The notes: generated from the sequence alone by a model not told the origin. Numbered from the stretch's first letter, positions 14,637-31,800 are shown. The stretch is DNA of 64,000 nucleotides from Flavobacteriales bacterium (GCA_019694805.1 JAIBBG010000003.1:1-64000); one strand, 5' to 3'. Translations and numbers: made by a program.

Positions 14637-15503
14637 TTATTTACCTGTAATCAGCACTTCAACCCGTCGGTTTTTAATCTGATCCTGTATGGTTTTCTCT
14701 GGATATACCAGCGGCATCGACATGGCATAACCTTTATAACTCAGTCGAGATGCGTCGATTCCGTGTTCAATGAGATAATCGTAGACGAATTGAGCACGAG
14801 TCCAAGACAAATTGTATTTGCCCGTTTCCTCATCAACGCCGTCTTCGCCGCCCTTTTTACCACAACAAACATGGCCTTGAATTTCAATTTTCATGGTTGG
14901 ATTTTCCTGCATGATGAGAAGTAATTTCTTCAGCACGGGCTTGGCTTCATTCAAAATGCGGTGTTTGCCGGGTTGAAAATTCAGCCCTTCCAGTACCAGC
15001 GATTCGCCCACATTTAACTGACTCAGGGTATTGAGACTGGCCTCTGTTTTCGCACTATCCACAGGAATGGCTTCAGGCTGAGGTTCAACAGGTATTACTG
15101 GTTCATTTGTTGCCGTGCTTTCAAAAAAGAGGGTAACCTTTGTCCAATTCGCATCAGGAGATGCACCTGCACAAGACTCCCTTTTCATCATTTCCTTGGA
15201 GATTGTCATCTCAACACCGGGGTAAAATTGATGCAGGATGTTTTCACAATAATCAGCCCTTTCCATGGCAATATTTTTCCGGTTTCCCTCTAATGATGGA
15301 CAATCCGAATGTGATTTGATGGTAACCGAGATGCCTCGTTCGGGCAATTTAGACAGCCCCTGTGATTCGAGGACCCGCGTGAATTCATCCGCATCCATGG
15401 CCATGTAGCCATGGCCAAACTGCAAATCAACCTTGATTGGAAATACCTGAGCATTCAGAAATTCCGTACAGAGGATTGATATGAATAATACAAGATGTTT
15501 CAC
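14637..15503 (-). CDS. OmpA-family protein with an atypical Cys-bearing peptidoglycan-binding loop
   Basis: 288 residues with a signal peptide (1-19, ending LNAQ). An N-terminal half resembles a degenerate OmpA-like fold (about 24-105; VTIKSHSDCPSLEGNRKNIA). A Pro/Glu linker leads to a C-terminal OmpA domain (about 165-286; LEGLNFQPGKHRILNEAKP, RAQFVYDYLIEHGIDASRL, NRRVEVLITGK). Where OmpA usually has GHTDNxG, this protein has GHVCCGKKGGEDG with adjacent cysteines C213-C214. The start is GTG; it is chosen because the signal peptide begins there. It begins 8 bases after the DUF3299-like gene, so it is the last gene of the ABC operon. OmpA domains normally bind peptidoglycan. A metal-related role for the cysteines is inference. 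Confidence 0.82.
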   Translation of the reverse strand: MKHLVLFISILCTEFLNAQVFPIKVDLQFGHGYMAMDADEFTRVLESQGLSKLPERGISVTIKSHSDCPSLEGNRKNIAMERADYCENILHQFYPGVEMTISKEMMKRESCAGASPDANWTKVTLFFESTATNEPVIPVEPQPEAIPVDSAKTEASLNTLSQLNVGESLVLEGLNFQPGKHRILNEAKPVLKKLLLIMQENPTMKIEIQGHVCCGKKGGEDGVDEETGKYNLSWTRAQFVYDYLIEHGIDASRLSYKGYAMSMPLVYPEKTIQDQIKNRRVEVLITGK

Positions 15504-15511
15504 CAGAAATG

Positions 15512-16063
15512 TTATTGGGGCGAGTATTCAACGGCGCCGTCGAGGATATAGTTCATTTGATAAATATCCGATGCATTCAGTCTTAATTTACCTTTGAAAG
15601 TAAGTCTTTCATCGGTTTTGTAAGTTCTGTTCTTTCCTGCGAATCGAAGATCAACAACGCTTTCTGGGCCTCCGCCTCCGCAGAAATAACAATTGGCATA
15701 AGGATATCTCGATACCACGTAAAAATTTTCATCATAATCTACTGGAATAACGTAACCGGTAATGTAAACATCCTTTCCTTCCATAGCCTTCACACTTGGT
15801 CCAAACGTTGGCTTCCAGTAATACATGTCCAGATCTGCAACATAAACATCCTTAAACGTAACATCCGTTAGGGTGTGCCATGTCAATTCCAAAACCTTTC
15901 CTTCTTGAAAAATGGGAGCAACAAAAAGCTGACGACCATAAGTCCAATCAATCACCTGTTTGGCTTTCGCAGGCAACTCCTCTTTCTTTTCATGACGGAT
16001 GAATCCATAGGTTCCAACCGCGATGATGATTCCAGTAATCACAAAAAAAATCTTCTTAACCAT
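15512..16063 (-). CDS. DUF3299-like membrane-anchored periplasmic protein
   Basis: 183 residues. An N-terminal uncleaved or signal-anchor helix (about 4-22) precedes a small beta-rich periplasmic domain. It has GKDVYITGYVIPVDYDE, then the signature NCYFCGGGGPESVVDL (C125, C128) and FKGKLRLNASDIYQMNYIL. The shape matches DUF3299-type proteins (G-V-P-------L-P--------C---P----V--). These accompany FtsX-like ABC permeases in zinc-regulated operons of gammaproteobacteria; here a C-x2-C-GGGG element stands at the conserved cysteine. It overlaps the permease gene by 8 bases and is thus translationally coupled. A role in metal binding is inferred from context and cysteines. The family name is from memory. 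Confidence 0.6.
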   Translation of the reverse strand: MVKKIFFVITGIIIAVGTYGFIRHEKKEELPAKAKQVIDWTYGRQLFVAPIFQEGKVLELTWHTLTDVTFKDVYVADLDMYYWKPTFGPSVKAMEGKDVYITGYVIPVDYDENFYVVSRYPYANCYFCGGGGPESVVDLRFAGKNRTYKTDERLTFKGKLRLNASDIYQMNYILDGAVEYSPQ

Positions 16064-17330
16064 TGGATAGCGTTTTCGAAATGTCCATTCTTAATGCGCG
16101 CAAAGCTGGCAATAATGACGCCACAATACCTATGAGCAAAGTTATACCCAGCAAAAGGAATTCATACGGAGTAATGCCCAATTTGTCAAAACCATAATGA
16201 AAATTCTCTTTCATCGTCTTACTTAGGATGAGTAAACCGGTTCTGCTGAGAACAAGGCCAATGACATATCCAAGCACCACCAGAATCAAGCCCTCACTCA
16301 AAATCAAGGCAAACAGCTTCATCCGTGTACCGCCCATGGTTCGGAGAAGAGCAAGCTCATACTTCCGATCCTTCATAGAATTGTAGAGTGAAATGAAAAT
16401 ACTGATGAATGATAAAATGGTGATGACCATAGCAATCGCAGAAATGGTACTCAACCCAATACCGAAGTTGTTCATCAGTCGAGAATTTTCCACCGCAACA
16501 TTCGCAAGCTGCATGGTGGTATCTTCGGTTTGTTTCGACAACATACCAAATGCACCCTTATTTCTCTTGATTAAAAGATAAGCTGTCATTTCCTTATCAC
16601 CGTCCGGATCAGAAGGTGAAGGCTCATCATGAACATGGCCTTCTTCATCCTCCGGATGATCCAGACTATGTGCAGTATCCCCAGTTTCTTCATCTGCGTG
16701 ATGCTCATGCACAAGCCATGTACTTTCCACTGGTGTGAGAATCAAATGATCAATAGCGCAACCAGAAGGTTTGAAAATGCCGACAACAGTAAACGGTTTA
16801 TCATGATGATGTGCGTCTGGGTCTCCTTCTGCTGCCCGATCGAATCCGTGAACACTTGTAAATGTGCTCCCCACTTGAAGTCCAGCATCACGCGCTACTT
16901 CGTAACCAATGGTTGCTTCAAATGGTTTCTCGAATATTTTTCCATTTTCCACTTCACAACCATAATGATCCGGATAATCCTTATTCGTTCCCACAATCCG
17001 AAACTTTTCGTAGTTGTCGCCATATGCTAATGGGATTGCCTTTTCAACCATGGGATTGCGAACAATGCGCTTGGCATCAGCTACTTTAATGTTGCCTGTA
17101 GGTGCGTCCACATGGTACACATTCGCTAAGATGCTTTGTAACGGACTTCCCTTTGCAGCGAGAACAAAATCGATGTCTTTGATGTTGCGATCAAATTTTT
17201 CGCTAATCTGATCTTTGATCAAAAGCATCAATGAAATAATCCCCACACCAAAGGCGAGCAGGACCACACTGAGTAAGGTATTCAGTGGACGAAACCGGAT
17301 ATTGCTCCAGGAGATTTTCAGCAAGTTCAT
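16056..17330 (-). CDS. FtsX/MacB-like ABC permease with histidine-rich periplasmic insert
   Basis: 424 residues with four membrane segments (about 15-37, 290-315, 345-370, 385-412) arranged as in LolC/E and MacB-type permeases. The large periplasmic domain has DFVLAAKGSPLQSILANVYH, GDNYEKFRIVGTNKDYPDHYG and KPFTVVGIFKPSG, followed by a striking His/Asp/Glu-rich insert (about 174-246). The insert holds ten histidines (HHH at 174-176, then positions 208, 210, 211, 221, 225, 232, 234). The LLRTMGGTRMKL motif is the usual coupling helix facing the ATPase. The start overlaps the ATPase stop as ATGA. Histidine-rich loops of this type commonly bind Zn or similar ions. Transport direction and substrate cannot be read from the sequence. 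Confidence 0.85.
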   Translation of the reverse strand: MNLLKISWSNIRFRPLNTLLSVVLLAFGVGIISLMLLIKDQISEKFDRNIKDIDFVLAAKGSPLQSILANVYHVDAPTGNIKVADAKRIVRNPMVEKAIPLAYGDNYEKFRIVGTNKDYPDHYGCEVENGKIFEKPFEATIGYEVARDAGLQVGSTFTSVHGFDRAAEGDPDAHHHDKPFTVVGIFKPSGCAIDHLILTPVESTWLVHEHHADEETGDTAHSLDHPEDEEGHVHDEPSPSDPDGDKEMTAYLLIKRNKGAFGMLSKQTEDTTMQLANVAVENSRLMNNFGIGLSTISAIAMVITILSFISIFISLYNSMKDRKYELALLRTMGGTRMKLFALILSEGLILVVLGYVIGLVLSRTGLLILSKTMKENFHYGFDKLGITPYEFLLLGITLLIGIVASLLPALRALRMDISKTLSNG

Positions 17331-17953
17331 AAGCTTATCTGTTTTGTGAATCTGTCCTTAAGTCTTTTGTCATGAGTCACGATGATGAGGGCCGAGCCAT
17401 ACAATGCTGCTTGTTCTTCAAGCAATGCAATCACTTCTTGAGCATTCTTATCATCCAAAGCACTGGTGGGTTCATCAGCAAGAATAACAGCCGGCTCATT
17501 GATAATGGCCCTCGCAATCGAAACTCTTTGCTGTTCACCAATACTCAGGTTAGCGGGCATGTTATTGATCTTCGACTCCAGATTTAGCCTGCCCAATGCA
17601 TTCTTGGCCTTCGTGCGATCAATTTTCACTCCTGTGAGATAGTTGGGTAAAATCAAGTTGTCTATCACCTTCAACGACTCAACAAAGTAGGCCGTCTGAA
17701 ATATGATTCCAATGTTTTTACCGCGAAACTGATCCATGTTTCGGTCGCTCAATCCTGAGGTGTTTTGACCGAGAATATTGACTTCGCCACTAGTTGGCTT
17801 CAACAATCCGGCTAATAAATGAAGAAGCGTGGTCTTTCCGCGACCGCTTTCGCCAAGAATAAGAAGGTGTTCTCCTTTCCCACAACGAATATCAGGGAAA
17901 TGAAAAGACGGCCCTTGATCGTACTTAAACTGAAGACCTGTGGTTTGAAGCAT
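17327..17953 (-). CDS. LolD/MacB-type ABC transporter ATP-binding protein
   Basis: 208 residues, slightly short for the family (about 220). It has Walker A GESGRGKTTLLHLLAG, a Q-loop in IIFQTAYFVESL, the ABC signature LSIGEQQRVSIARAI, Walker B AVILADEPTSALD and the switch histidine in IIVTHDKRL. It is the first gene of the four-gene operon (ATPase, His-rich permease, DUF3299-like, OmpA-family) and energises the permease whose ATG overlaps its stop. An imperfect -7 box TAACTTCG lies just upstream of the start, and the DUF4258 operon is divergent. Confidence 0.92.
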   Translation of the reverse strand: MLQTTGLQFKYDQGPSFHFPDIRCGKGEHLLILGESGRGKTTLLHLLAGLLKPTSGEVNILGQNTSGLSDRNMDQFRGKNIGIIFQTAYFVESLKVIDNLILPNYLTGVKIDRTKAKNALGRLNLESKINNMPANLSIGEQQRVSIARAIINEPAVILADEPTSALDDKNAQEVIALLEEQAALYGSALIIVTHDKRLKDRFTKQISL

Positions 17954-18083
17954 ATCAGAAAATTTGCGGTTACGAAGTTAGAGAAGGCTTCTACAGGAAA
18001 ATTAAATGATTTGTGAAGAAGTCTGAACGCTGGATGGCAACAACAATCAGATATTTGTGGCAAGAATCATCTCCATAAGCTAT

Positions 18084-18461
18084 ATGAACTTCAAACAAAG
18101 ACTATCCCGATATCTGTTAGGTTTGGGAATAGGATGCCTCATCGTATTTATGATGTTTCCGAACCACGATTGGTTGGGCTGGACACCAGGGAAAACTGTG
18201 ATGAAACAAATCCGAGAAGTCAATTTCCATATTTCAGATGTTGCACTATGTCAAATGGATTGCATTGGCATCAACAAAGATCAGATTCAGTTGGCTCGGA
18301 ACGAAGGACATATCAACTTTGATAAATCAGATGTAAAAGGCAGTCCACTTGTCTACAATTTGGAGTATGGCAATTTGACGATGAATATTCAGCTTGAAAC
18401 AGATAAAGCCACACTGAAAGAAGTTAGCGCTCCTGCAAACGAATGTAATTGCCATGAATGA
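18084..18461 (+). CDS. DUF4258-like membrane-anchored small protein
   Basis: 125 residues from the ATG at 18084. A GTG at 18057 would add nine residues ahead of the basic start NFKQRLSRY. One N-terminal hydrophobic segment (about 9-24) is followed by PNHDWLGWTPGKTV and a soluble domain with CQMDCIGINKDQIQLARNEG and HINFDKSDVKGSPLVYNL. The spacing (C--IN---I-----G-V-FD-SD) matches my memory of DUF4258 proteins of Bacteroidota, which have no known function. The C-terminus is Cys/His-rich (NECNCHE). It overlaps the M20 gene by 8 bases and is thus coupled to it. It is divergent from the His-rich ABC operon. Confidence 0.6.
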   Translation: MNFKQRLSRYLLGLGIGCLIVFMMFPNHDWLGWTPGKTVMKQIREVNFHISDVALCQMDCIGINKDQIQLARNEGHINFDKSDVKGSPLVYNLEYGNLTMNIQLETDKATLKEVSAPANECNCHE

Positions 18462-19683: not shown

Positions 19684-20415
19684 ATGACGGAATTTATCTC
19701 ACTTGGCGAAAACTGTCTTCCGGATGACGTGTTGTCTTACCTCGGATTGAAAAATGAATCTTATCCATTCGGTGGTGGACGATTCAACATTGAGTACATC
19801 ATTCAGTTAATCGAAACAGATTTTGAAGACCTGTTGAATCCAGATTTTTTAGTCTGGGGACAAACTGTAGCAAAAGAGGTTGTGCGCAACAATAAGTACA
19901 CATATCAAAACAACATCTATTCTGATACTGTCACCCTCGGCTTCGAGTTTACACATCACAATGTTTTTGAGGAAGCGCCGCGCAGGTCTTTCGTAAGAAA
20001 GATTGAACGTTTTAAAAAGACTTTGGAGTCTGGTCACAACCTTGTGTTTTTCTACAATTACCGATATGCGCCGAACAACGACATCGAAAAACTGGTCGAA
20101 CTCATTCGCCAATTTCTCGATCTTCTGAAAAAAAAATATGGTTATCAATACAAGTGTTTGGTAATCTATCAAACGCTCAATGAACACAACCGTGAGATCC
20201 GTTTATCCAAAACAGAAGATGTATTCATCGCAGAGTTCATGACGAAATACGAATGGGAAGGTGATGAATACTGGAACGGTTCACCAGACCGAGATTTATT
20301 CCGTAAGCTCTTTGAATCCGCATCCTTTAATCAATTCGTATACGGCCCTTTTCACTTTATTCGACCATGGATCAAAGCCATAAAGTCTATTGCTCGTAAA
20401 ATTCTAGGTAAATGA
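19684..20415 (+). CDS. DUF1796 putative papain-like cysteine peptidase
   Basis: 243 residues. The N-terminus FISLGENCLPDDVLSYLGL followed by SYPFGGGRF matches the DUF1796 signature (SLG-NC-----L---G----S-PFDW), in which the cysteine of G-NC is the presumed nucleophile. The usual PFDW is altered here to PFGG. A candidate histidine/aspartate partner lies in the middle (LVFFYNYRYAPNNDIEKLV). The C-terminus (FIRPWIKAIKSIARKILGK) is basic and amphipathic. Peptidase activity in this family has been predicted, not shown as far as I know. Such genes often sit in surface polysaccharide loci, but here it ends an operon with an amidohydrolase. Confidence 0.7.
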   Translation: MTEFISLGENCLPDDVLSYLGLKNESYPFGGGRFNIEYIIQLIETDFEDLLNPDFLVWGQTVAKEVVRNNKYTYQNNIYSDTVTLGFEFTHHNVFEEAPRRSFVRKIERFKKTLESGHNLVFFYNYRYAPNNDIEKLVELIRQFLDLLKKKYGYQYKCLVIYQTLNEHNREIRLSKTEDVFIAEFMTKYEWEGDEYWNGSPDRDLFRKLFESASFNQFVYGPFHFIRPWIKAIKSIARKILGK

Positions 20416-20463: not shown

Positions 20464-23400
20464 TTATTTCTCTACCAGCATTCTTTCAGTGATAGTTTTT
20501 CCACCAGCTGAAATTTCTACTGAATAGAAACCAGAGGTCAATGATTGTTCAAATTCAATTCTGCTATTTACTGAACCAGTTGCAACGAACATGTCGTTAT
20601 AAACGATCTGACCGATAGAGTTGAAAATGCGGATGTATACATCTCCAATCACTTCTCCGGTAAGGTGTACATTCAATCCTTCACCATGGTTTGGATTTGG
20701 ATAAATGTTTGCCTGAATTTCCAGAGCTTCAGTTCTTTCTTCGTTGTTCTGCATTTGAGGTTCTTGAGCCATCATGCTTGCAGAACTTCCACTCACACTG
20801 ATCACTCGAGTTGGTCCATAGGTACCTGTCATGTAAGAATAATTTGGTCTAATTCTCACTCTCCAGTAGCCTACGCTAGTCAGGTTGCTTGGGAATGCAG
20901 CAACCAAATTCAGGTATTGTGAATTGCCATTGGTTGTTACTTCGAACGGTGTGCCAATCGCTGTTGCGCCTGTGCAATCAGAAACCTTGGTGAATTCATA
21001 GGTGAAATTCATTGCACCACAAGCATTCACATTTCCTGTCACTGGAGCCCACTGCAAGAAGTTTGTTCTGATCAATACCGCAGGACAAACCTGAGTTGAT
21101 TTCACCACGAGTGTTGGTTGTGGTGCGATAGTAATTCCAGTACAATTCACTGAAGCCACATTACCCAATACGGTCATCGTTGGTTCCGGTGTGCCATTAC
21201 CATCTGTTAGAGAATAGTTGGCATCAACACGAACGCTATAGATACCGCCATGGCGAATATCAAGTGCAGGAGTGCTGAATGGAACGAGTCCAGTCGTAGT
21301 TGCGCTGGTGGTAACATATGGGAAAGCCGCATTTCCACCGGTTCCTGTGAAACTGAACGTGTAGCTGTTTGCTCCGCGGTACGCTGCTTTGAAATTGCTG
21401 CACATTGTAAATCCGCCAACAGGCGTTGTATAAGAACAGCCGCTAGGCATCAATGGCGACACACAAATGGCAAACGTACCACCCACAGAAATATCTCTGT
21501 TTCTCACGCCAACGTAATACGTTTGACCAGGAGTAAGTGCGTTGTAGTTGAGTACTTCTTGACCACCTGATGTTGTGTTCGCGGTTTCGCAATTCACTTC
21601 CACTGCAGATGAATTTTGGAGCTCAATGATCGCGTCAAATCCAACTGGAACTACCTTGATTTGAACTCCTGTAGAAGGGGCAACAAACTTGTACCAAACG
21701 TCTCGACCAGCGCCAGCAGGCACATTTGATGCGTTTCCTTGTGGTGAAATGTTTGCATTCACCAAAGTGCCATTCAATGAAAGACAATTTGGATAATGTG
21801 TATTCGGATTATTCAGGTTTACGCTAATGGCGTTATTCCAGTTGTCATTTACAATGCCTGCACAACCTTCATTGATCAGACCATCACAGTCATCATCAAT
21901 AGCGTTGTTGCAAAGTTCCGCAGCACCTGGATAAGCCGTAGCAATATTGTCCTGACAATCGTTTACATAAGATGCTCCACCATGAGCTGCAGGATAATAT
22001 GGTATCGTTTGAGCTGGCCATGTTGCAGAATTGCAATCAACACCTGAAACACATCCAATATCGCTAACAAACCCACCAAAACCATCGCCATCAGCATCAG
22101 CCCACCACTCTGTACCAGGATTCACATCGGCATTGGTGTCGCAACAGTCATTTCCATTAGATACATAACCCACAGGAGCAGTGCACGCTGTTTGAGTCAC
22201 CAGAGGATTTCCATAACCATCGCCATCACTATCTTGATAGAAGGTGCTTCCTGTAATGGTAACCACTGCACTCATGCCAATGTTTTGCGAGCAACTGCCA
22301 TTTGAAACACTGGTGAGCAAGTACGTAGTTGTAGAAGTAAGCGCACCAGTATTAAAGCTTGCAAATCCTGAACCGTTCAATGTGATAAATTGATTTGCGC
22401 CACCATTGATGGTGTAAGTCACGGTAGCACCAGGGTTACCGTAGAAGCTGATTGTTGTGCTGCTTCCACCACAAATAGATGTTGAGCCATCTATTTCTGC
22501 TTCCGGAATTTCATTCACAGTAATATTTACGGTTCCTGTTGCAGCGTTCGAACAAATACCATCGTTCACTGAAACCAAATCATAAACAACATCAGTCCAA
22601 AGTGTACCTGTGCTCAATGTTGCATTGCCGGATCCATCTAAAGTGATGAACTGATTGCTACCTCCATCTATAGTATAGGTCACCACCGCATTAGCTGTAC
22701 CGGTAAAGTTGATGGTTCCCGCGTTGCTTTGGCAAATGGCGGAAGGCCCACTTATACCCGCCGATGGCAAAGCATGGTAAGTTAGGGTTGCACTTCCAGT
22801 GAGATCACCAGGAAGAGCAGAACAATTAGCATCACTCAATGATGCAATGCTATATGTTGTAGTTGATGTTGGAGTAACGTTTACAACGATCATTGGGCCA
22901 CTTCCAGAGAAGGAAATTGCACCTGGAGAAAGGGTACCATTAAAGCTACCCGTACCAGTTACGTTAATGTAAAGAGCAGCTGAACTACCCGCGCATACAG
23001 TTTGTGTTCCGCCGAGCACGCCGGTTGGACGAGCATTTACGGTAATCACTGCGCTACCAGAAAGATCGCCAGCATTCGCAGAACAGTTGCTGTCACTCAA
23101 CGTGGCAATAGTAATTGTTGCAGTAGCAGACGGACTCACGTTCACAGATATTGGACTCGAAGCACCACTGAATGAAGCACCATTGGAAAGTGTTCCGCTC
23201 CATGGGCCCACGCCTGTCACCGCGATAGATAACGAAGCCGAGCTGCCATTACAAATTGTTTGTGTGCCGGAAAGAATTCCTGTTGGTCTGTTGTTAATCG
23301 TTACGATAGCGCTTCCGCTCAAATCACCAGCTATTGAAGAACAGTTGGCATCAGTGAGAGATGCAACGGTATAAGTTGTAGATGATGAAGGCGAAACAGC

Positions 23401-26400
23401 CACAGTTATAGGGCTTGAAGAGCCACTGAAAGAGGCTCCGCTCGACAATGTTCCGCTCCAAGGTCCGGTGCCTGTAACTGCAATAGAAAGGTTAGCAGAA
23501 CCTCCAGCACAAATCGATTGTGTACCACTAATCACAGCTGTTGGTCTAGCATTGACTGATACAACTGCAGAACCTGTTTTATCGCCGGCCAATGCCGTGC
23601 ATTTGGTGTCTACGAGAGTAGCTATTGTGTATGTAGTCGCAGAAGTTGGGCTCACACTTACTGTTATCGGGCTTGTCGATCCGCTGAATGCTGCACCATT
23701 CGAAAGTGTTCCGCTCCAAGGACCAGTGCCGGTTACTGCAATCGACAATGTCGCAGATCCACCATTGCATATAGCTTGAGTACCAGAGATGACGCCTGTA
23801 GGACGCGGATTCACTGTTACTGTAACAGATTCAGTTGTTGTACAGTTTGTTGCTGTTGTTCCGGTTATAGTATATGTCTGCGTTGAACTTGGGTTGGCAG
23901 TAACTGCTGCGACGTTGGTTGCGCTCAATCCAGTGGATGGAGACCATGAATATGTTGGTGAACCAAAGTTTGCAGTGGCAGTCAGTCCAACTGATCCGCC
24001 ATTGCAAATTTCTGGAGCAGATGGCGTAATGGTTATATCGAAACTACCGCAATCCGCTGCGAAGAATTGACCATACATGGTGGTGTTGTTCAATGATGTT
24101 CCGCTAATTTGGTTTGTTCCGGTAGTAAATGATGGGTATGACCACGTTGTACCATTCCATCTTGCAAGTTTAACAGAGCTGTTGGTTGCGCCACCAATGA
24201 GGTCCGCTGACTGATAGCTGAATGCATCAATGTTCGTAGACGCAGATGATGTTATGCCACTATTGGTAATAGTCCACCAGCGATTTACATAGCTGATTGT
24301 GCTCAATCCATGGCTAGCAGCTTGTGGGTGTGCACCATCTGTAGCTCTTGCAATGGCATTTCCTGAATTGGTAACAGTCACATAATTGATGGTCACCGGA
24401 GAATATCCTGTTGCTGTACCGATATCAAATGTGTAGCTATTCGTGCCTGTGGTAACCGCACGCTGCAAATCTCCTATCACGTGACCCTGACCGAGACGAC
24501 TCACTGCAGCCACTGAAGAGTTCGTTATTTGAAGTCTGTTAGAGAGCACATCAAGAGCACCCAAATTGGTTGATGGGAAGCTCAATGAAGAACTCACATT
24601 GGCATTAGAGCCGCTGTTCATAGTCACTGTATTGTTACCTGTTGAACCCGTGTTGTTGATCACAAGTGTAGATACAGTATTCGCAGTTGGAGTTGTTGAT
24701 GTCCAGAACGTACCTGTGTTCTGGTTGGTAGTTCCGTTGAACACATAAGTAGCACCGGAGCTATACGTGCGTGTTGTTGTTTGAACAGATCCTGATGCGC
24801 CAGTGGTCATAAAGCCATTGGCATGCGCTGTTCTGGCTGTACCGCCATTGTTGATATTCACACGGTGTTTGCTTGTTCCAGCAATGACATAAGTGCCAAA
24901 ATCAAGTGTGCCATTCACGTTTACAGTCGCAGTATATGTTCCTGAACCATAAATATTCAAGTTGCTCAACAATGAGGTTGTGCTACCGCTTGAAATCGTA
25001 TAGTCAATCCATCTATTCAATCCTGAGGATGTTTCTGTAATTGATTGGGTCGTTCCATCAAATCTGAACAGGGCATTGCTTGTACCAGCACCTGATGCGG
25101 TAAGTATCCCGTTTCCAGTTCTGGAATAGTTACCGCTCATTCGGATTTCCGCAGTTGCAGAACCGCCTCCTGTGTAAACATCAAACGTTCCCGCGGTCTG
25201 AGAGAAATCACCGGCTAAAACAACCACAACATCTGTATTGTTGGTTGTACCCAAATGCCATGTGCCACCAGTTTGAGAAATATTTCCGTCGATGTTGATG
25301 GTAGTGTTTCCGCTATTGCAAAGAGCGAACTCGCCTGTACCTGTACCCACAATGGTTAAGGAACCGTTGATATCAGTTAGGGATTCATTCGCATTCACAT
25401 CACCGTTACCGGTATAGTTCACTCTGAAATCATAGAACGCCTGATTACCACAACTGATGTTACCTGTAGAGAAGTTACCTATCAAATCACAAAGCGATCC
25501 CACATTCCAGGTAGCAGTCGGTATGGTACCAGGGGTAGTTGTGTTGTGTTCATATACACCACCATTATTCACATTAATAGATCCGTTATTGGTAATGGTA
25601 GCGCCAGAGTTTCTCAAATAACCATTTACCTCAACATCACCAGAAGCGGAAACAGTCATGGTTCCTCCTGACTTATTGAATCTTGCAGAAGGAACGATGG
25701 TCATCAATCCGTTCACAGTCACGTTCGCCGCACTGTTCACGTTCGCCGAAGTATTTGAAATGATTAAATGATTAAAGCTCGTAGCATTTGTTTGTATCGC
25801 TTGCGCTGCAGTACCCATAAACATAACAGTACTGCCAGTCGTTGTTACAGTTCCGCTTGTAGGAGTGTAATTTCCACAAATGCTGATGGTATCAGTACTT
25901 GCCAATGTGCGCGCACCTGTGCCAAGGTTCAAATTACCGTATGTCAGAGCTGGCACTGTTTGATTGAATGTCGTGTTGGTAAGATTCAATGTGCTGTTGC
26001 AATCAAAAACCAAAGATGAATTTGTATTGTGAGTGAAGTTACCTGCGATGGTCAGTGCCGCACCAGATGCTAAACTGAGATCACCACCATCACTCATTGT
26101 GAGGTGATTCACCGTTGCAGATCCTGAAAGGATACATGGATTTGTTGCATTGCCATTGAAGTCAACGTTATCAGAAGAAGTTGGTACACCAGAAGGTGTC
26201 CAGTTTGCAGAAGTACTCCAGTTCGTACTCACAGATCCATTCCAATATTTCACAGGTGTTCTTCCACTGAAAATAGCATTGTTCAAGAGAAAGTTGAGGT
26301 CGCTCAGGTTAGCGCCTGTTTTGGTAATGGTTGGAGAACTAATATTGGTAGTGTAGTGATTCCATGCTGAAGCACCTTGCGGGAATACCGCAACTTGAAG

Positions 26401-29400
26401 GTTGTTTTCAGTTCCGTTCACATCACCTGGCACATCATACGTCATGCTCGGTATGTATGATGAAAAAGAAATTCCTGTATTGACGGTGGTCTTCCAATAT
26501 CTCGACAAATAGTCCACTGGCGAATATGGTGTGCTCAACACCGAAGCGGTATCGTCCACAACACGTACGCCAATTTCGTATGTTCCCATAACGAAAGAGA
26601 AGTTCAATCCAAAAGGAGAATACTCCGCAGTGCCAGTAAGATCTCCCACAGGGAATGTGAGGTTAATGGCTGAGCTGATCGATCTCTTCAATTGGCCTGT
26701 GCCATTGGTAGCAATCATTTTGGTTGAACTAGGAGAAGCAACCACAATTGCACCCGAAGCTGTGTTGTTGATAGAAAGATCATTATTACCCAGAGCGAGA
26801 ACACCATTGGTAAGTGTAAGAATACCTGATGAACGAATTGTTCTGCTGGCTGATAATGTGATAACATCGGTGGTATTCAAAGTCACGTCTTCAGGACCAT
26901 TGCTCGAAGGAAATTCAACACCAGTATTCATGGCAGTAGTTCCTTCATATACCAGTGTGCTTCCAGTATTTGAGTAACTGATAGTTCCACCGGTGATAGC
27001 TCCTGCCTTTCTATAGAATGTGGTATTACTGATGATCGGCAAGGTGCCCGTTAATGTCATACCCGCACTATTGTCCAAACGGAAATTGATCGCATTTGAA
27101 ATCGTTCCTGAAATCGTTACAGCTTGGTTTGCAGAACCGTTAAATTCTACGAGATTACCTGCATTTGTGCCACCGGATGATTGAGTAAATGTTCCAGCGC
27201 TAAGGCTGAAGTTTCCACCAACACGCAACAATCCGGAAGTGTTACCATCACCATTGTTCAAGTTAAATGTGCTCGATCCTGTTGACTGAGTATAATTTCC
27301 GGCAACATTCATTGTTGCAGAGTAAGTTCCGTTAGACTGTGCCATACGTAGCTCCGTATTGGCTCCGCTCAACGAGAAATTGCCGCCAACATTCAGGGTA
27401 TAAGAACTAGCGTCAGTGAGGCGAAGGTCATTTCCGTTGGTTGCACTCACGGTGAAATTACCCGCGATCGACTCAAGATTGCCGTTCAATTGTGCGTCGT
27501 TGGTTTGTGAAGCGCAGTTCCAAGTGAAGTGACCAAAATCCTGAGCCAATCCACCTGGGGTGAAGTTAGCACCAGGAGATGTGTAACCTTGAATTAAACA
27601 TGTAGATGTTGCATTCCAGGTTGCAGTAGGAATAGTTCCAACTACTGTGGTATGATTGTGTCTGTAGGTTGCTGTCGAAGAAAATGTGAGACTACTCGCT
27701 GATGATGTAACAATACCAAAATTGTTCAAACTACCATTCACGGTAGCAACGCAGTTGGTAAAGTTCACAGCATTAGATCCATTGGTTGTGATAGCAAGAG
27801 TGCCATCTACGGATGTTGTTGCCGAATTTGCAAATGCAATAGTAAGTGCGTTGCTGCTGCTAATGGTCAAACTACTTCCTGAGGCAATGCTCAGGTCAGT
27901 ACCGTTGTTACCGCCTATAGTCAGGGTATTAGAACCCGCTGAAGTGAAGCTCACATTGGTGTTACCTGAAATCAAAAGTTTACCAATTGTTTGAGCAGAA
28001 ATATTTGTTGCTGTTGTTGTTGCACCATTGTTGAAAATGAGAACGTCATCAATTCTTGCGGTGGTTCTGTTGGGTGTCCAGTTAGACGCAGTCGTGAAAT
28101 TCGCTGTGCCCGTCTGATTCCAAACATATTGTGCACCGTCTTTCACTCTTCCTGTAAACTCAGCGGTGGCGCCGAGTGGTGCGGACGTATTTGAAAGACC
28201 CGTGGTCAACGTCAACACATTGGATGCTGCAACACTACCCGCGTCTTGAGACCATGTTGATCCATTCCAAAGGTTCGCGCGAACATTTGATTCTGCACCA
28301 ACCACATCACCAGCTGAATAGTTGAATGATGCGTTATAAGTATATGTGCTTGCCGCGCTGTTGCTCACTTGCCAGTATCTGCTCAGATAATCAGTTTGCA
28401 CAGGAGTATTATCTAACTGTGGATGATTACCATCAACGACATTGATACCAATATTTCTCGCGGCTCCATTTGCTGTAAATACAATTGTGGCAGGAGAATA
28501 ATCTGTTGTACCAGTAGCATCGCCAACAGGAAACACATAGGTAACTGGAAATCCTGATGTCGCAATAGCTCTCACCAATTGTCCTGTTCCGTTTGTGATG
28601 ATCATTCTCGAAGCAGATTGACCAGTGATTGCACCGGTTGCATTGTTGGATAGGGTAAGATTGTTATTGCCCAGGGTGAAGGATCCTGAAGTGAGCGTAA
28701 GTATATTCGAAACTGTGGTGGCGTTATTCAATAGAGCACCAGCACTGTTGTTTAATGTCAAAGAATAAAAAGTTGTAGCGCCAGTGATCGTTTGTTGCGA
28801 AGATCCATTCAGCGTTACTGTTCTATTATTATGTGTGAAGGTTCCGGCATTGCGGTTAAAATCACCACCCACATTAAGGTTACCATTTGCCGCAGAAGAA
28901 AGAGTAAGCGTACCCGATGTTCCACCTCCTATAGTAAGATCACCAACCACGGTGAGTGCAGCGGTCATGGCGCCCATTGAAAGCGAACAGCCATTATTGA
29001 TGCTGAGATTACCCGCACACTGACGCGCAGTGCCGGTTACACCATTCGCTAGATCGAGGGCTGTGCCAGTGTTGCTAATCAAAACATGAAATGGATATCC
29101 AGCACCACTCGTTGCTGACCACTCTGTAGATCGGCCGAATGCTGCACCCGTATTGTAGTTCAATGTTGATCCACTCGCATAAATAGGTGCATTCGTTGAA
29201 ACCGACCCTCCGCTATTCAACTGTAGATATGTGTTGTTGCCAATTGTAGTTATTGAAGACCCGAAGTTAACCGCGGCAGTCAATCTTACGATTCCGTCTG
29301 CTGCAGAACTGGTGAAATTCAATGTTCCACCACTGGTTGATGCGATCGTTTTTGTACCGCTGAACAATACCAATGAACTCGCAGCATTCAGATTGATAGT

Positions 29401-31800
29401 GCGGCTACCACCTGTTACACGAACGTTACCGCCATTACCAGCAATGGTAAGCGATCTGCCAGATGCAATATTCAATGCGCCAGAAGATGTGATGGAAAGC
29501 ACATCGCCAGACGTTTGGCTCACCAATACGTCGTTATTCAATGTTACACCCGAAGCATTTGAATTGCTTATCGTGAGGTAAGCAAAGTTGTTGTTTGCAC
29601 CCGCGGTATTCAATGAACCAGTTACACTTTGTGCACTCGTTCCATTCAAAGTAACAACGCGGTTGTTATGTGTGAATGTACCATTTTGTGAAAAGTCTCC
29701 TCGCAATTGAAGATCACCACCAGCAACCGTTGACAATGTCAATGCAGATGAAGCCGAAATGGTGACGTTGCGATTTGCGTGACGATAAGCGGCAGAAGTA
29801 CCAAAACTCAACGTCGTATTATTTCCATTACCTATCAAAACATGATGTGGAATACCTGAACCAGTTGTCGTGCCTGTTTGCCACTCAGTAGATGCGGTAG
29901 TAGTAGCTCCCGTATTGTAAACGAGTGTTGATCCAGTCGCATAAGTTGGTGGGTTGGTGGTGACTGCACCACCTGAAAGAAGTTCAAGATAAGTATTGTT
30001 ACCAATCGTGGTAATCAAGTTACCAAAATTCACTGCGGCAGAAAGACTCAATTTACCGTTGGCCGTAGTAGAAGTAAGTTGAAGTGTTCCAGAACTTGCT
30101 GATGTTACAGTTTTCGTTCCAGTGATGCTCATCGCACTGGTCGACGCGTTGAAGTGAATAGTTCTTGTACCACCACTCACCAAAATATTACCACCATTTC
30201 CTTCTAAAGTCAACGTTTTTGTTGCGTTGATGGAAAGCGATCCTGCATTCGTGATCTGGAGGACATCTCCTGATGTGCCAACAATTTTTACATCAGTATT
30301 TAAAACAACACCACCTGATGTGTTATTGATGATAAGGGTTCTGAAGTTGTTACTTGAACCTGTCGTGCTCAAACTACCATTGATATTTTGAGTTGAAGAT
30401 CCATTGAACGTTACGCTTCTATTGTTGTGAGTAAAAGTTCCGTTTTGTGTAAAGTCGCCACCGATGCTTAAGTCACCACCGGCTACTGAAGACAATGTCA
30501 AACTATTGCCAGAAGTACTGTTGCTAATGGTCACGTTACCTGCAGCATGGCGATACGATGCCCCACTGCCAAAAGCCAAACCAGAATTAGCCACTGCATC
30601 TCCGATCACAACATGATGCGGAATGCCAGTACCTGAAACCGCACCAGCAGACCATTCCAAAGCAACACCAGCAGTATTGCCTGTGTTGTACTTTAATGTA
30701 GATCCTGATGAGTAAGTAACAGAATTCGTATTTAAGAATCCGCCTGCGCGCAAATCAAGAATACCGTTTGATCCAATGGTAGATGCGCCGGATGCAAGTG
30801 GGGTATACTTCTGATGAACACGAATGAGACCATCAATAGTAAGAGCATTACCCGTTTGCGCTACCTCACCATTCAAGATCAACGACGAACCAGCAGATGT
30901 AGTAAGTGTTCCTGTGTTATAGTTTATCAATGTTCCGTGTCCTGTGCCAATGGCATTACCAAATTGAACAGAAACACCTGAAAGATCCAATGAGCCGCCA
31001 TTCACCACCAAAGAACCACCAGACGCCAAGTTGAAGTTGCCTGTTGGAGTATATGATCCGGAAGTGATGGTAATCTTACCGTAGGTAACACCAGCAATTG
31101 GATTCGCATCTACCAATGAAGCTGTGATGGGCGTATTGATAGAATTCGAAGGCACACAATCAGCAGCACTTACACCAAATCCACCTATGTAATTCAACAC
31201 CGTTGGGTTTGCAGCACCACCAAGATCAGCACCAGGTGCATTAGAATAGGTAACACCACTATTACCCATCCACATAGTCAGGTAAAGCGCATCCGGGTTT
31301 CCAATACTAGAAAACGGAATAGCCACCTCGCGCCATGTAGAGCCCGTGTTATAAGTTGGTCCGCTGATAGTTGATGCCCAACCACTTGAGTAATCACGCG
31401 CTTCCTGAGAACTCTCTTCAACGTGCAAATTGTAGTTTGCCGTGAATGGAAGCGTTCCGGTAACACCATTATATGATTGACCCGAAGTAGTCCCGTTGCC
31501 AGAGGTGGCAACCGAAGCAGGATCAGTATCCAGATAAACTGTAAAGTTGTCTGATGATGCAAAGCTTCCGCTGCTGCGAAAAGCGCCCAAATACAAATTA
31601 CTTGCATCATAAGTGATGTAGTAATCCGTATTTCCAGATGCGGCCGAAATTTTTTCAGCAGCATTAAAATCCGCAGGGCTACCGCTGAAGGTTACCGTGT
31701 GGTTGGATTGGCTAAATACTTCAGCTGAGATAGCGAAAGCAAAAAGCAAAGAGGCAATTTGTTTAGTGTGCAAAAAAGGAGCACGAAGCAGTGACTTCAT
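20464..31800 (-). CDS. giant T9SS-secreted surface protein A (3778 residues)
   Basis: The protein is very long and rich in Thr, Ser, Gly and Asn. A signal peptide (about 1-30) precedes a beta-sandwich domain (about 32-225; TDYYITYDASNLYLGAF, FTVYLDTDP), CBM9/DOMON-like in pattern. Long beta-helix-like repeats follow (for example GGDFTQNGTFTHNNRSVTF). Three copies of a module with FPVGD, YSP and YLSRYW or VNRWW end near residues 1140, 1765 and 2510, and NWTP-type boundaries start new blocks. Next come Ig-like units, with four tandem 86-87-residue copies at 2666-3010; MopE-type DGDG/DCDG motifs (3187-3314); a PPC-like beta domain (DVWYKFVAPSTG, YYVGVRN); and a T9SS type A sorting domain (3699-3778; IYPNPNHGEG, SGFYSVEI). 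It is predicted to cross the outer membrane via T9SS and stay on the surface; adhesion is likely. Ligand unknown. Confidence 0.9.
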   Translation of the reverse strand: MKSLLRAPFLHTKQIASLLFAFAISAEVFSQSNHTVTFSGSPADFNAAEKISAASGNTDYYITYDASNLYLGAFRSSGSFASSDNFTVYLDTDPASVATSGNGTTSGQSYNGVTGTLPFTANYNLHVEESSQEARDYSSGWASTISGPTYNTGSTWREVAIPFSSIGNPDALYLTMWMGNSGVTYSNAPGADLGGAANPTVLNYIGGFGVSAADCVPSNSINTPITASLVDANPIAGVTYGKITITSGSYTPTGNFNLASGGSLVVNGGSLDLSGVSVQFGNAIGTGHGTLINYNTGTLTTSAGSSLILNGEVAQTGNALTIDGLIRVHQKYTPLASGASTIGSNGILDLRAGGFLNTNSVTYSSGSTLKYNTGNTAGVALEWSAGAVSGTGIPHHVVIGDAVANSGLAFGSGASYRHAAGNVTISNSTSGNSLTLSSVAGGDLSIGGDFTQNGTFTHNNRSVTFNGSSTQNINGSLSTTGSSNNFRTLIINNTSGGVVLNTDVKIVGTSGDVLQITNAGSLSINATKTLTLEGNGGNILVSGGTRTIHFNASTSAMSITGTKTVTSASSGTLQLTSTTANGKLSLSAAVNFGNLITTIGNNTYLELLSGGAVTTNPPTYATGSTLVYNTGATTTASTEWQTGTTTGSGIPHHVLIGNGNNTTLSFGTSAAYRHANRNVTISASSALTLSTVAGGDLQLRGDFSQNGTFTHNNRVVTLNGTSAQSVTGSLNTAGANNNFAYLTISNSNASGVTLNNDVLVSQTSGDVLSITSSGALNIASGRSLTIAGNGGNVRVTGGSRTINLNAASSLVLFSGTKTIASTSGGTLNFTSSAADGIVRLTAAVNFGSSITTIGNNTYLQLNSGGSVSTNAPIYASGSTLNYNTGAAFGRSTEWSATSGAGYPFHVLISNTGTALDLANGVTGTARQCAGNLSINNGCSLSMGAMTAALTVVGDLTIGGGTSGTLTLSSAANGNLNVGGDFNRNAGTFTHNNRTVTLNGSSQQTITGATTFYSLTLNNSAGALLNNATTVSNILTLTSGSFTLGNNNLTLSNNATGAITGQSASRMIITNGTGQLVRAIATSGFPVTYVFPVGDATGTTDYSPATIVFTANGAARNIGINVVDGNHPQLDNTPVQTDYLSRYWQVSNSAASTYTYNASFNYSAGDVVGAESNVRANLWNGSTWSQDAGSVAASNVLTLTTGLSNTSAPLGATAEFTGRVKDGAQYVWNQTGTANFTTASNWTPNRTTARIDDVLIFNNGATTTATNISAQTIGKLLISGNTNVSFTSAGSNTLTIGGNNGTDLSIASGSSLTISSSNALTIAFANSATTSVDGTLAITTNGSNAVNFTNCVATVNGSLNNFGIVTSSASSLTFSSTATYRHNHTTVVGTIPTATWNATSTCLIQGYTSPGANFTPGGLAQDFGHFTWNCASQTNDAQLNGNLESIAGNFTVSATNGNDLRLTDASSYTLNVGGNFSLSGANTELRMAQSNGTYSATMNVAGNYTQSTGSSTFNLNNGDGNTSGLLRVGGNFSLSAGTFTQSSGGTNAGNLVEFNGSANQAVTISGTISNAINFRLDNSAGMTLTGTLPIISNTTFYRKAGAITGGTISYSNTGSTLVYEGTTAMNTGVEFPSSNGPEDVTLNTTDVITLSASRTIRSSGILTLTNGVLALGNNDLSINNTASGAIVVASPSSTKMIATNGTGQLKRSISSAINLTFPVGDLTGTAEYSPFGLNFSFVMGTYEIGVRVVDDTASVLSTPYSPVDYLSRYWKTTVNTGISFSSYIPSMTYDVPGDVNGTENNLQVAVFPQGASAWNHYTTNISSPTITKTGANLSDLNFLLNNAIFSGRTPVKYWNGSVSTNWSTSANWTPSGVPTSSDNVDFNGNATNPCILSGSATVNHLTMSDGGDLSLASGAALTIAGNFTHNTNSSLVFDCNSTLNLTNTTFNQTVPALTYGNLNLGTGARTLASTDTISICGNYTPTSGTVTTTGSTVMFMGTAAQAIQTNATSFNHLIISNTSANVNSAANVTVNGLMTIVPSARFNKSGGTMTVSASGDVEVNGYLRNSGATITNNGSINVNNGGVYEHNTTTPGTIPTATWNVGSLCDLIGNFSTGNISCGNQAFYDFRVNYTGNGDVNANESLTDINGSLTIVGTGTGEFALCNSGNTTINIDGNISQTGGTWHLGTTNNTDVVVVLAGDFSQTAGTFDVYTGGGSATAEIRMSGNYSRTGNGILTASGAGTSNALFRFDGTTQSITETSSGLNRWIDYTISSGSTTSLLSNLNIYGSGTYTATVNVNGTLDFGTYVIAGTSKHRVNINNGGTARTAHANGFMTTGASGSVQTTTRTYSSGATYVFNGTTNQNTGTFWTSTTPTANTVSTLVINNTGSTGNNTVTMNSGSNANVSSSLSFPSTNLGALDVLSNRLQITNSSVAAVSRLGQGHVIGDLQRAVTTGTNSYTFDIGTATGYSPVTINYVTVTNSGNAIARATDGAHPQAASHGLSTISYVNRWWTITNSGITSSASTNIDAFSYQSADLIGGATNSSVKLARWNGTTWSYPSFTTGTNQISGTSLNNTTMYGQFFAADCGSFDITITPSAPEICNGGSVGLTATANFGSPTYSWSPSTGLSATNVAAVTANPSSTQTYTITGTTATNCTTTESVTVTVNPRPTGVISGTQAICNGGSATLSIAVTGTGPWSGTLSNGAAFSGSTSPITVSVSPTSATTYTIATLVDTKCTALAGDKTGSAVVSVNARPTAVISGTQSICAGGSANLSIAVTGTGPWSGTLSSGASFSGSSSPITVAVSPSSSTTYTVASLTDANCSSIAGDLSGSAIVTINNRPTGILSGTQTICNGSSASLSIAVTGVGPWSGTLSNGASFSGASSPISVNVSPSATATITIATLSDSNCSANAGDLSGSAVITVNARPTGVLGGTQTVCAGSSAALYINVTGTGSFNGTLSPGAISFSGSGPMIVVNVTPTSTTTYSIASLSDANCSALPGDLTGSATLTYHALPSAGISGPSAICQSNAGTINFTGTANAVVTYTIDGGSNQFITLDGSGNATLSTGTLWTDVVYDLVSVNDGICSNAATGTVNITVNEIPEAEIDGSTSICGGSSTTISFYGNPGATVTYTINGGANQFITLNGSGFASFNTGALTSTTTYLLTSVSNGSCSQNIGMSAVVTITGSTFYQDSDGDGYGNPLVTQTACTAPVGYVSNGNDCCDTNADVNPGTEWWADADGDGFGGFVSDIGCVSGVDCNSATWPAQTIPYYPAAHGGASYVNDCQDNIATAYPGAAELCNNAIDDDCDGLINEGCAGIVNDNWNNAISVNLNNPNTHYPNCLSLNGTLVNANISPQGNASNVPAGAGRDVWYKFVAPSTGVQIKVVPVGFDAIIELQNSSAVEVNCETANTTSGGQEVLNYNALTPGQTYYVGVRNRDISVGGTFAICVSPLMPSGCSYTTPVGGFTMCSNFKAAYRGANSYTFSFTGTGGNAAFPYVTTSATTTGLVPFSTPALDIRHGGIYSVRVDANYSLTDGNGTPEPTMTVLGNVASVNCTGITIAPQPTLVVKSTQVCPAVLIRTNFLQWAPVTGNVNACGAMNFTYEFTKVSDCTGATAIGTPFEVTTNGNSQYLNLVAAFPSNLTSVGYWRVRIRPNYSYMTGTYGPTRVISVSGSSASMMAQEPQMQNNEERTEALEIQANIYPNPNHGEGLNVHLTGEVIGDVYIRIFNSIGQIVYNDMFVATGSVNSRIEFEQSLTSGFYSVEISAGGKTITERMLVEK
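22771..23805 (-). repeat. four tandem 258/261-nt Ig-like repeat units inside giant gene A
   Basis: Unit starts, marked by RPT(G/A)(V/I)-(S/G)GTQ, lie at 23805, 23547, 23289 and 23031. Three intervals are exactly 258 nt and the last unit is 261 nt. Each unit encodes (I/V)C-G-S, a VTG-G pair, then FSG, V-V-P-(S/T), a (D/T)-(N/K)C and GSA---. The conserved cysteine pair per unit could form one disulfide per Ig-like domain. The regular length suggests recent duplication. Confidence 0.88.
28760..30790 (-). repeat. about 255-residue beta-helix-like repeats inside giant gene A
   Basis: Three successive copies begin with (S/T)TIG(S/N)N followed by Y(S/A)(S/T)GSTL-YNTG (near 30714, 29943 and 29181, thus about 771 and 762 nt apart). 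Then come G(I/Y)P(H/F)HV-I and GDF-(Q/R)N-GTFTHNNR-VT-NG-S-Q. The third copy diverges in its middle. Boundaries are approximate. Confidence 0.75.

Follow-up and report, generated by a model that had tools for sequence, protein, structure and literature searches.

A Zrg-related type VII ABC operon of Flavobacteriales with a CxxC OB-fold partner and a probable role in zinc handling outside the inner membrane

What does a compact ABC operon with a histidine-rich permease and cysteine-bearing partner proteins do in a Flavobacteriales bacterium, and which of its genes make up the system? We studied such a locus in a 64,000-nucleotide stretch of the genome (GCA_019694805.1 JAIBBG010000003.1:1-64000), here called the window. 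Four ORFs, all of them open, lie on the minus strand and encode a LolD/MacB-type ABC ATPase of 208 aa (17327-17953), a type VII (MacB/LolE-fold) permease of 424 aa (16056-17330), a membrane-anchored OB-fold protein of 183 aa (15512-16063) and an OmpA-like protein (14637-15503). The ATPase stop and the permease start share an ATGA, the permease and OB-protein genes overlap by 8 bases, and the OmpA gene starts with GTG 8 bases past the OB gene, all as described in a sequence-only reading of the locus that had proposed a metal-handling system related to zrg operons. The operon is flanked by an EF-P-like gene, a divergent gene on the plus strand (18084-18461) and an M20-type amidohydrolase gene, with the OmpA gene as a further neighbour of the first three. 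Close by are a DUF1796 putative papain-like cysteine peptidase (19684-20415, 62 bits) and a 3778-aa ORF (20464-31800), which, judged by its translation only, we took to be a giant secreted surface protein.

The third protein, present in a single copy in the organism's own genome, had a homologue in 45 of 60 relatives, and a scan of genome contigs yielded at least 580 confirmed relatives, 80 of which were kept. Most loci examined in the organism's own family showed the order ATPase, permease and OB protein with tight overlaps, the ATPase being the first gene of the triad, and the triad was also found in other Bacteroidota. Given that this three-gene core recurs in most relatives examined, the gene arrangement is not due to chance, and the core consists of the ATPase, the permease and the membrane-anchored OB-fold protein with its CxxC. 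Among 395 sampled Bacteroidota genomes the third protein occurred in 55, in many cases within the triad and in many others as orphan paralogues. Some orphan CxxC paralogues lay beside M28 or M49 metallopeptidases (L172, L174, L176, L219 and L220).

We then considered the OmpA protein, which had been proposed to replace the usual fourth component. Its OmpA domain (PF00691) scored 57.4 bits against a cut-off of 27.2, and the adjacent cysteines reported for its loop are indeed present as GHVCC at residue 210. An OmpA gene adjoined the triad only in the organism's own genus, where the CC is conserved, and was seen beside the triad nowhere else. GHVCC was also found in OmpA-like proteins of other Flavobacteriales (G080 and G114), away from triad genes, while three further matches to the pattern were not OmpA proteins. 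We rejected OmpA as a fourth component beyond the genus, of which it is an accessory. The more conserved fourth gene is the divergent one, which encodes a single-TM membrane protein of 125 aa with a CxxxC pair (CQMDC) and a C-terminal CxC (CNC). In most own-family loci examined this gene adjoined the ATPase gene in divergent orientation, and both cysteine pairs were kept in 44 of 52 distinct sequences. At its N-terminus a hydrophobic stretch comes after basic residues, which places the remainder of the protein probably in the periplasm. The protein had been called a DUF4258 protein with a Cys/His tail; the tail is present, but the match to DUF4258 (PF14076) reached 14.2 bits against a cut-off of 25, and the CxxxC pair had been overlooked.

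The histidines of the permease had suggested a metal site. Residues 173-232 contain exactly 10 His together with 13 Asp/Glu, which agrees with the ten histidines within about 60 acidic residues noted earlier. The His-rich acidic insert (residues 208-234; 16629-16709, minus strand) is predicted to be disordered, with pLDDT below 50 at residues 218-237, and varies within the family: 64 of 111 family permeases carry at most one His in the insert, and 24 carry five or more. We rejected the insert as a defining functional metal site, because most homologues do not have it. The His-rich loop of V. cholerae ZrgA is likewise dispensable (PMC9820375).

Another set of permease residues was far better conserved. 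H161, H175, D194 and H208 form a set defined in the present analysis. Each of the 12 permeases that we compared, taken from Bacteroidota, Zrg operons and Alphaproteobacteria, has these four residues, whereas LolC, LolE and MacB of E. coli do not. Of 116 distinct permeases collected, 115 carry the set, and the remaining one is an unrelated ABC gene. The motif was also seen in sequences from Deinococcus, Thermus, P. liaowanqingii and Catenovulum. When a tree of permeases was built, those of Bacteroidota, those of Zrg operons and those linked to alkaline phosphatase (see below) each formed one group, and the three groups were split from LolC, LolE, MacB and another ABC permease with support of 86/94, a split that we take as moderate because the branches are long. 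These results bear on the question whether the operon is a lipoprotein or peptide system of the ordinary LolCDE/MacB-like sort, unconnected with metals, its His and Cys residues being structural or redox-active. The fold is in line with such a system: the permease matched MacB_PCD and FtsX in Pfam, and its AlphaFold2 model (pLDDT 87.9) matched LolE and MacB in Foldseek. The ATPase (ABC_tran, 107 bits) also scored nearest to LolD, at 182 bits against a cut-off of 307.75, and the permease reached 35.8 bits with NCBIfam LolCE, for which the cut-off is 362.45. However, unlike MacB and LolCDE, the window operon has a separate ATPase, a single permease gene, the four conserved residues and neither system's sequence hallmarks. 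The conserved residues, the membership in one clade with Zrg and the COG0523 neighbours of relatives make an ordinary system very unlikely.

The OB-fold protein, which contains CYFCGGGGPES, carries the motif NCYFCGGGGPES, reported previously, starting at residue 124. CxFC was found in 122 and CxxC in 130 of 145 distinct OB proteins collected. The four permease His/Asp residues and this CxxC look like metal ligands. The earlier assignment of the third gene as DUF3299-like stands at the level of fold but not of family score: the protein reached 14.1 bits with DUF3299 (PF11736), under the Pfam cut-off of 22, while its AlphaFold2 model (pLDDT 88.0, pTM 0.68) had as its sole PDB match below 0.001 the structure 4hsp of the DUF3299 protein PA4066 (1.7e-4, TM 0.45-0.54), and hhalign with three DUF3299 proteins gave a probability of 97.0. 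We describe it as a remote DUF3299/ZrgE relative. A PF11736 search of the own genome gave no match and was uninformative, since the control genomes gave none either; tblastn of the OB protein against a plasmid collection also gave no match. At some relatives' loci the OB-protein gene is followed by FAD/NAD-dependent oxidoreductase genes (L179, 5804-7000; L188, 5448-6647; L187, 8155-9063), a possible hint that the CxxC acts in redox chemistry.

How close, then, is the operon to the Zrg systems, represented by Vibrio ZrgABCDE and P. aeruginosa PA4063-PA4066? In the plasmid collection, the permease matched over its full length DUF2796-ATPase-permease-DUF3299 operons of P. aeruginosa and Phaeobacter, the latter adjoining a Fur-family gene, and also matched an Aeromonas operon that begins with ZrgA (195.7 bits). 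The order of ATPase, permease and DUF3299-fold gene is that of PA4064-PA4066, the permease is homologous over its full length with the same three His and one Asp, and no solved fold is closer to the third protein than that of PA4066, all of which bears out the proposed relationship to zrg-type systems. Unlike Zrg, the window operon has no ZrgA/DUF2796 gene and has the divergent four-Cys membrane protein, and where DUF3299 carries ACIHxPPPPxNQ, its third protein carries CxxC-GGxGPE. ZrgA (PF10986/DUF2796) had no match in the own genome and none over the cut-off in the 60 relatives, where four weak matches fell below it. Because ZrgA was looked for and not found, we class the operon as a Zrg-like variant and not as a Zrg system.

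This relationship raises the possibility that the triad is a true zinc importer, as proposed for Vibrio ZrgABC, with the CxxC OB-fold or four-Cys protein in the place of ZrgA. In its favour, no ZnuA-type binding protein was matched in the own genome, so that another uptake route would be needed, and COG0523 genes neighbour the operon in relatives. However, the permease has a type VII fold, and no type VII system (MacB, LolCDE, FtsEX) is known to move ions inward across the membrane. Orphan OB-protein genes without a permease, and alkaline phosphatase neighbours, would also be left unexplained. Experimental work on Zrg is itself divided between an importer in Vibrio (PMC9820375, PMC9817125) and an exporter of pyochelin-cobalt in Pseudomonas (PMC11481552). 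The Vibrio system is Zur-repressed and needed for growth in zinc limitation (PMC9817125, PMC9820375). The P. aeruginosa operon is zinc-repressed, but the loss of its permease did not lower cellular zinc, and in a triple mutant zinc fell no further (PMC11481552). Altogether, we consider an importer rather unlikely. Export of a metallophore or another small molecule by a MacB-type machine, as proposed for PA4064/PA4065 and pyochelin, would fit the fold and the P. aeruginosa experiments (PMC11481552). However, no MacA-like adaptor or TolC gene lay beside the triad in loci with identified neighbours, MacA being likewise not among the neighbours of the window operon, which also differs from MacAB-TolC in having ATPase and permease as separate ORFs and not as one fused protein. 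No metallophore synthesis genes were seen, and here too the alkaline phosphatase neighbours would have no explanation, so that such an exporter seems unlikely.

The neighbours of related operons lend support to the metal hypothesis. Of 60 fetched loci, 12, belonging to 10 genera, had a COG0523 GTPase no more than four genes away from the OB-protein gene, and all of these GTPases carry GCxCC. The binomial chance of this is about 1e-13 if the background is assumed to be 4 such genes or fewer per about 4000, with genomes that are related and not independent. A subset of COG0523 has been linked to zinc homeostasis (PMC2770081). At four loci of Bacteroidota the triad had PhoX or PhoA as a neighbour. 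PhoX stands immediately before the ATPase gene in L046 and L047, whereas in L211 it is set back by one more gene, upstream of a COG0523 gene; in L216 it is PhoA that comes after the OB gene. On the other side, the known metals of PhoX are iron and calcium, not zinc. The window's own copy of the operon has no adjoining COG0523, PhoA or PhoX gene, and cobW matches in the own genome were weak only.

In Alphaproteobacteria and Deinococcota we found a third branch. In all eight loci inspected (L158, L161-L164 and L229-L231; two from Rhizobium, two from Paracoccus and one each from Shinella, Azospirillum, Deinococcus and Thermus), an alkaline phosphatase gene was followed by genes for a CPFC protein, an ATPase and a permease, and PF00245 was confirmed in all five loci scanned. 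The CPFC protein is either labelled hypothetical or left without annotation, and no Pfam family matches it; hhalign with the window's OB family gave 97.2. This operon shares with the window's a CxxC OB-type protein, an ATPase and a permease with the same four residues; it differs in that its OB gene precedes the ATPase gene and its first gene is the PF00245 alkaline phosphatase. The literature mentioning DUF3299 that we searched held no description of the Bacteroidota or the alkaline phosphatase-linked branches, and both the frequent COG0523 and occasional PhoX/PhoA neighbours in Bacteroidota and the branch in Alphaproteobacteria and Deinococcota are apparently new.

These phosphatases, together with a Na_Pi_cotrans gene adjoining an orphan OB-protein gene and a 5'-nucleotidase (5_nucleotid_C) among the neighbours, could also be taken to mean that the system belongs to phosphate scavenging in the envelope and that metal is incidental. 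However, the Zrg members have no phosphatase and are placed under zinc control by the literature, COG0523 genes are among the neighbours, and the four conserved His/Asp residues and the CxxC resemble metal ligands. We regard a phosphate-linked system as quite unlikely.

Since relatives adjoin zinc-chaperone and alkaline phosphatase genes, a role in zinc handling beyond the inner membrane is probable. We consider it fairly likely that it is a Flavobacteriales branch of a type VII ABC clade that includes Zrg and that it handles zinc in the periplasm. On the strength of the homology, the order of the genes, the residues conserved, the folds and the neighbouring genes, we infer a metal, a direction and partner roles as follows. 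By mechanotransmission, ATP hydrolysis in the cytoplasm would move the permease's periplasmic domain; a putative site including H161, H175, D194 and H208 would bind or sense zinc or a zinc carrier; and movement of the domain would release the zinc or pass it on. The CxxC OB-fold protein and the divergent four-Cys protein may serve as periplasmic partners, and exported metalloenzymes such as alkaline phosphatases as possible beneficiaries. A bolder proposal, that such exported enzymes are given their zinc by a widespread ATP-driven machine consisting of a type VII ABC transporter that has a His/Asp site in the periplasm and of a CxxC OB-fold partner, is tentative, and we doubt it more than we believe it. 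If true, it would amount to an energy-driven way of metallating enzymes outside the cytoplasm, one branch of which is the Zrg zinc-starvation system, and it would address how secreted zinc enzymes get their metal. Comparison of the three branches, which share their core residues and differ in accessory genes, offers a handle on the disputed function of Zrg: features common to all, namely the four permease residues and the OB partner, should belong to the mechanism, and the alkaline phosphatase neighbours provide a simple enzymatic read-out in laboratory species.

The metal hypothesis had been said to fail if homologues kept the ATPase and permease but lacked the histidines and cysteines. The outcome is split, because the insert is poorly kept and the OmpA cysteines adjoin the triad only within the genus and occur elsewhere without it; the CxxC and the four residues of the permease, however, are retained. 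The neighbours of relatives support a metal system, but two of its original grounds, the insert and OmpA, are not general. In the divergent intergenic region (17954-18083), where a search for Zur or other metal-regulator boxes had been suggested, no Zur-like palindrome was recognised, and a single weak overlapping palindrome lies at 17953-17972, at the ATPase start. The own genome has two Fur-family genes. Zinc-limitation RNA-seq tables for Paracoccus denitrificans listed no alkaline phosphatase, in a strain that may not carry the operon, and zinc RNA-seq papers on Paracoccus and Burkholderia held nothing on the operon. In two genomes of the genus (L064 and L065), the intergenic region upstream of the ATPase gene contains many copies of a GTACTTAGTACTTCG-like repeat.
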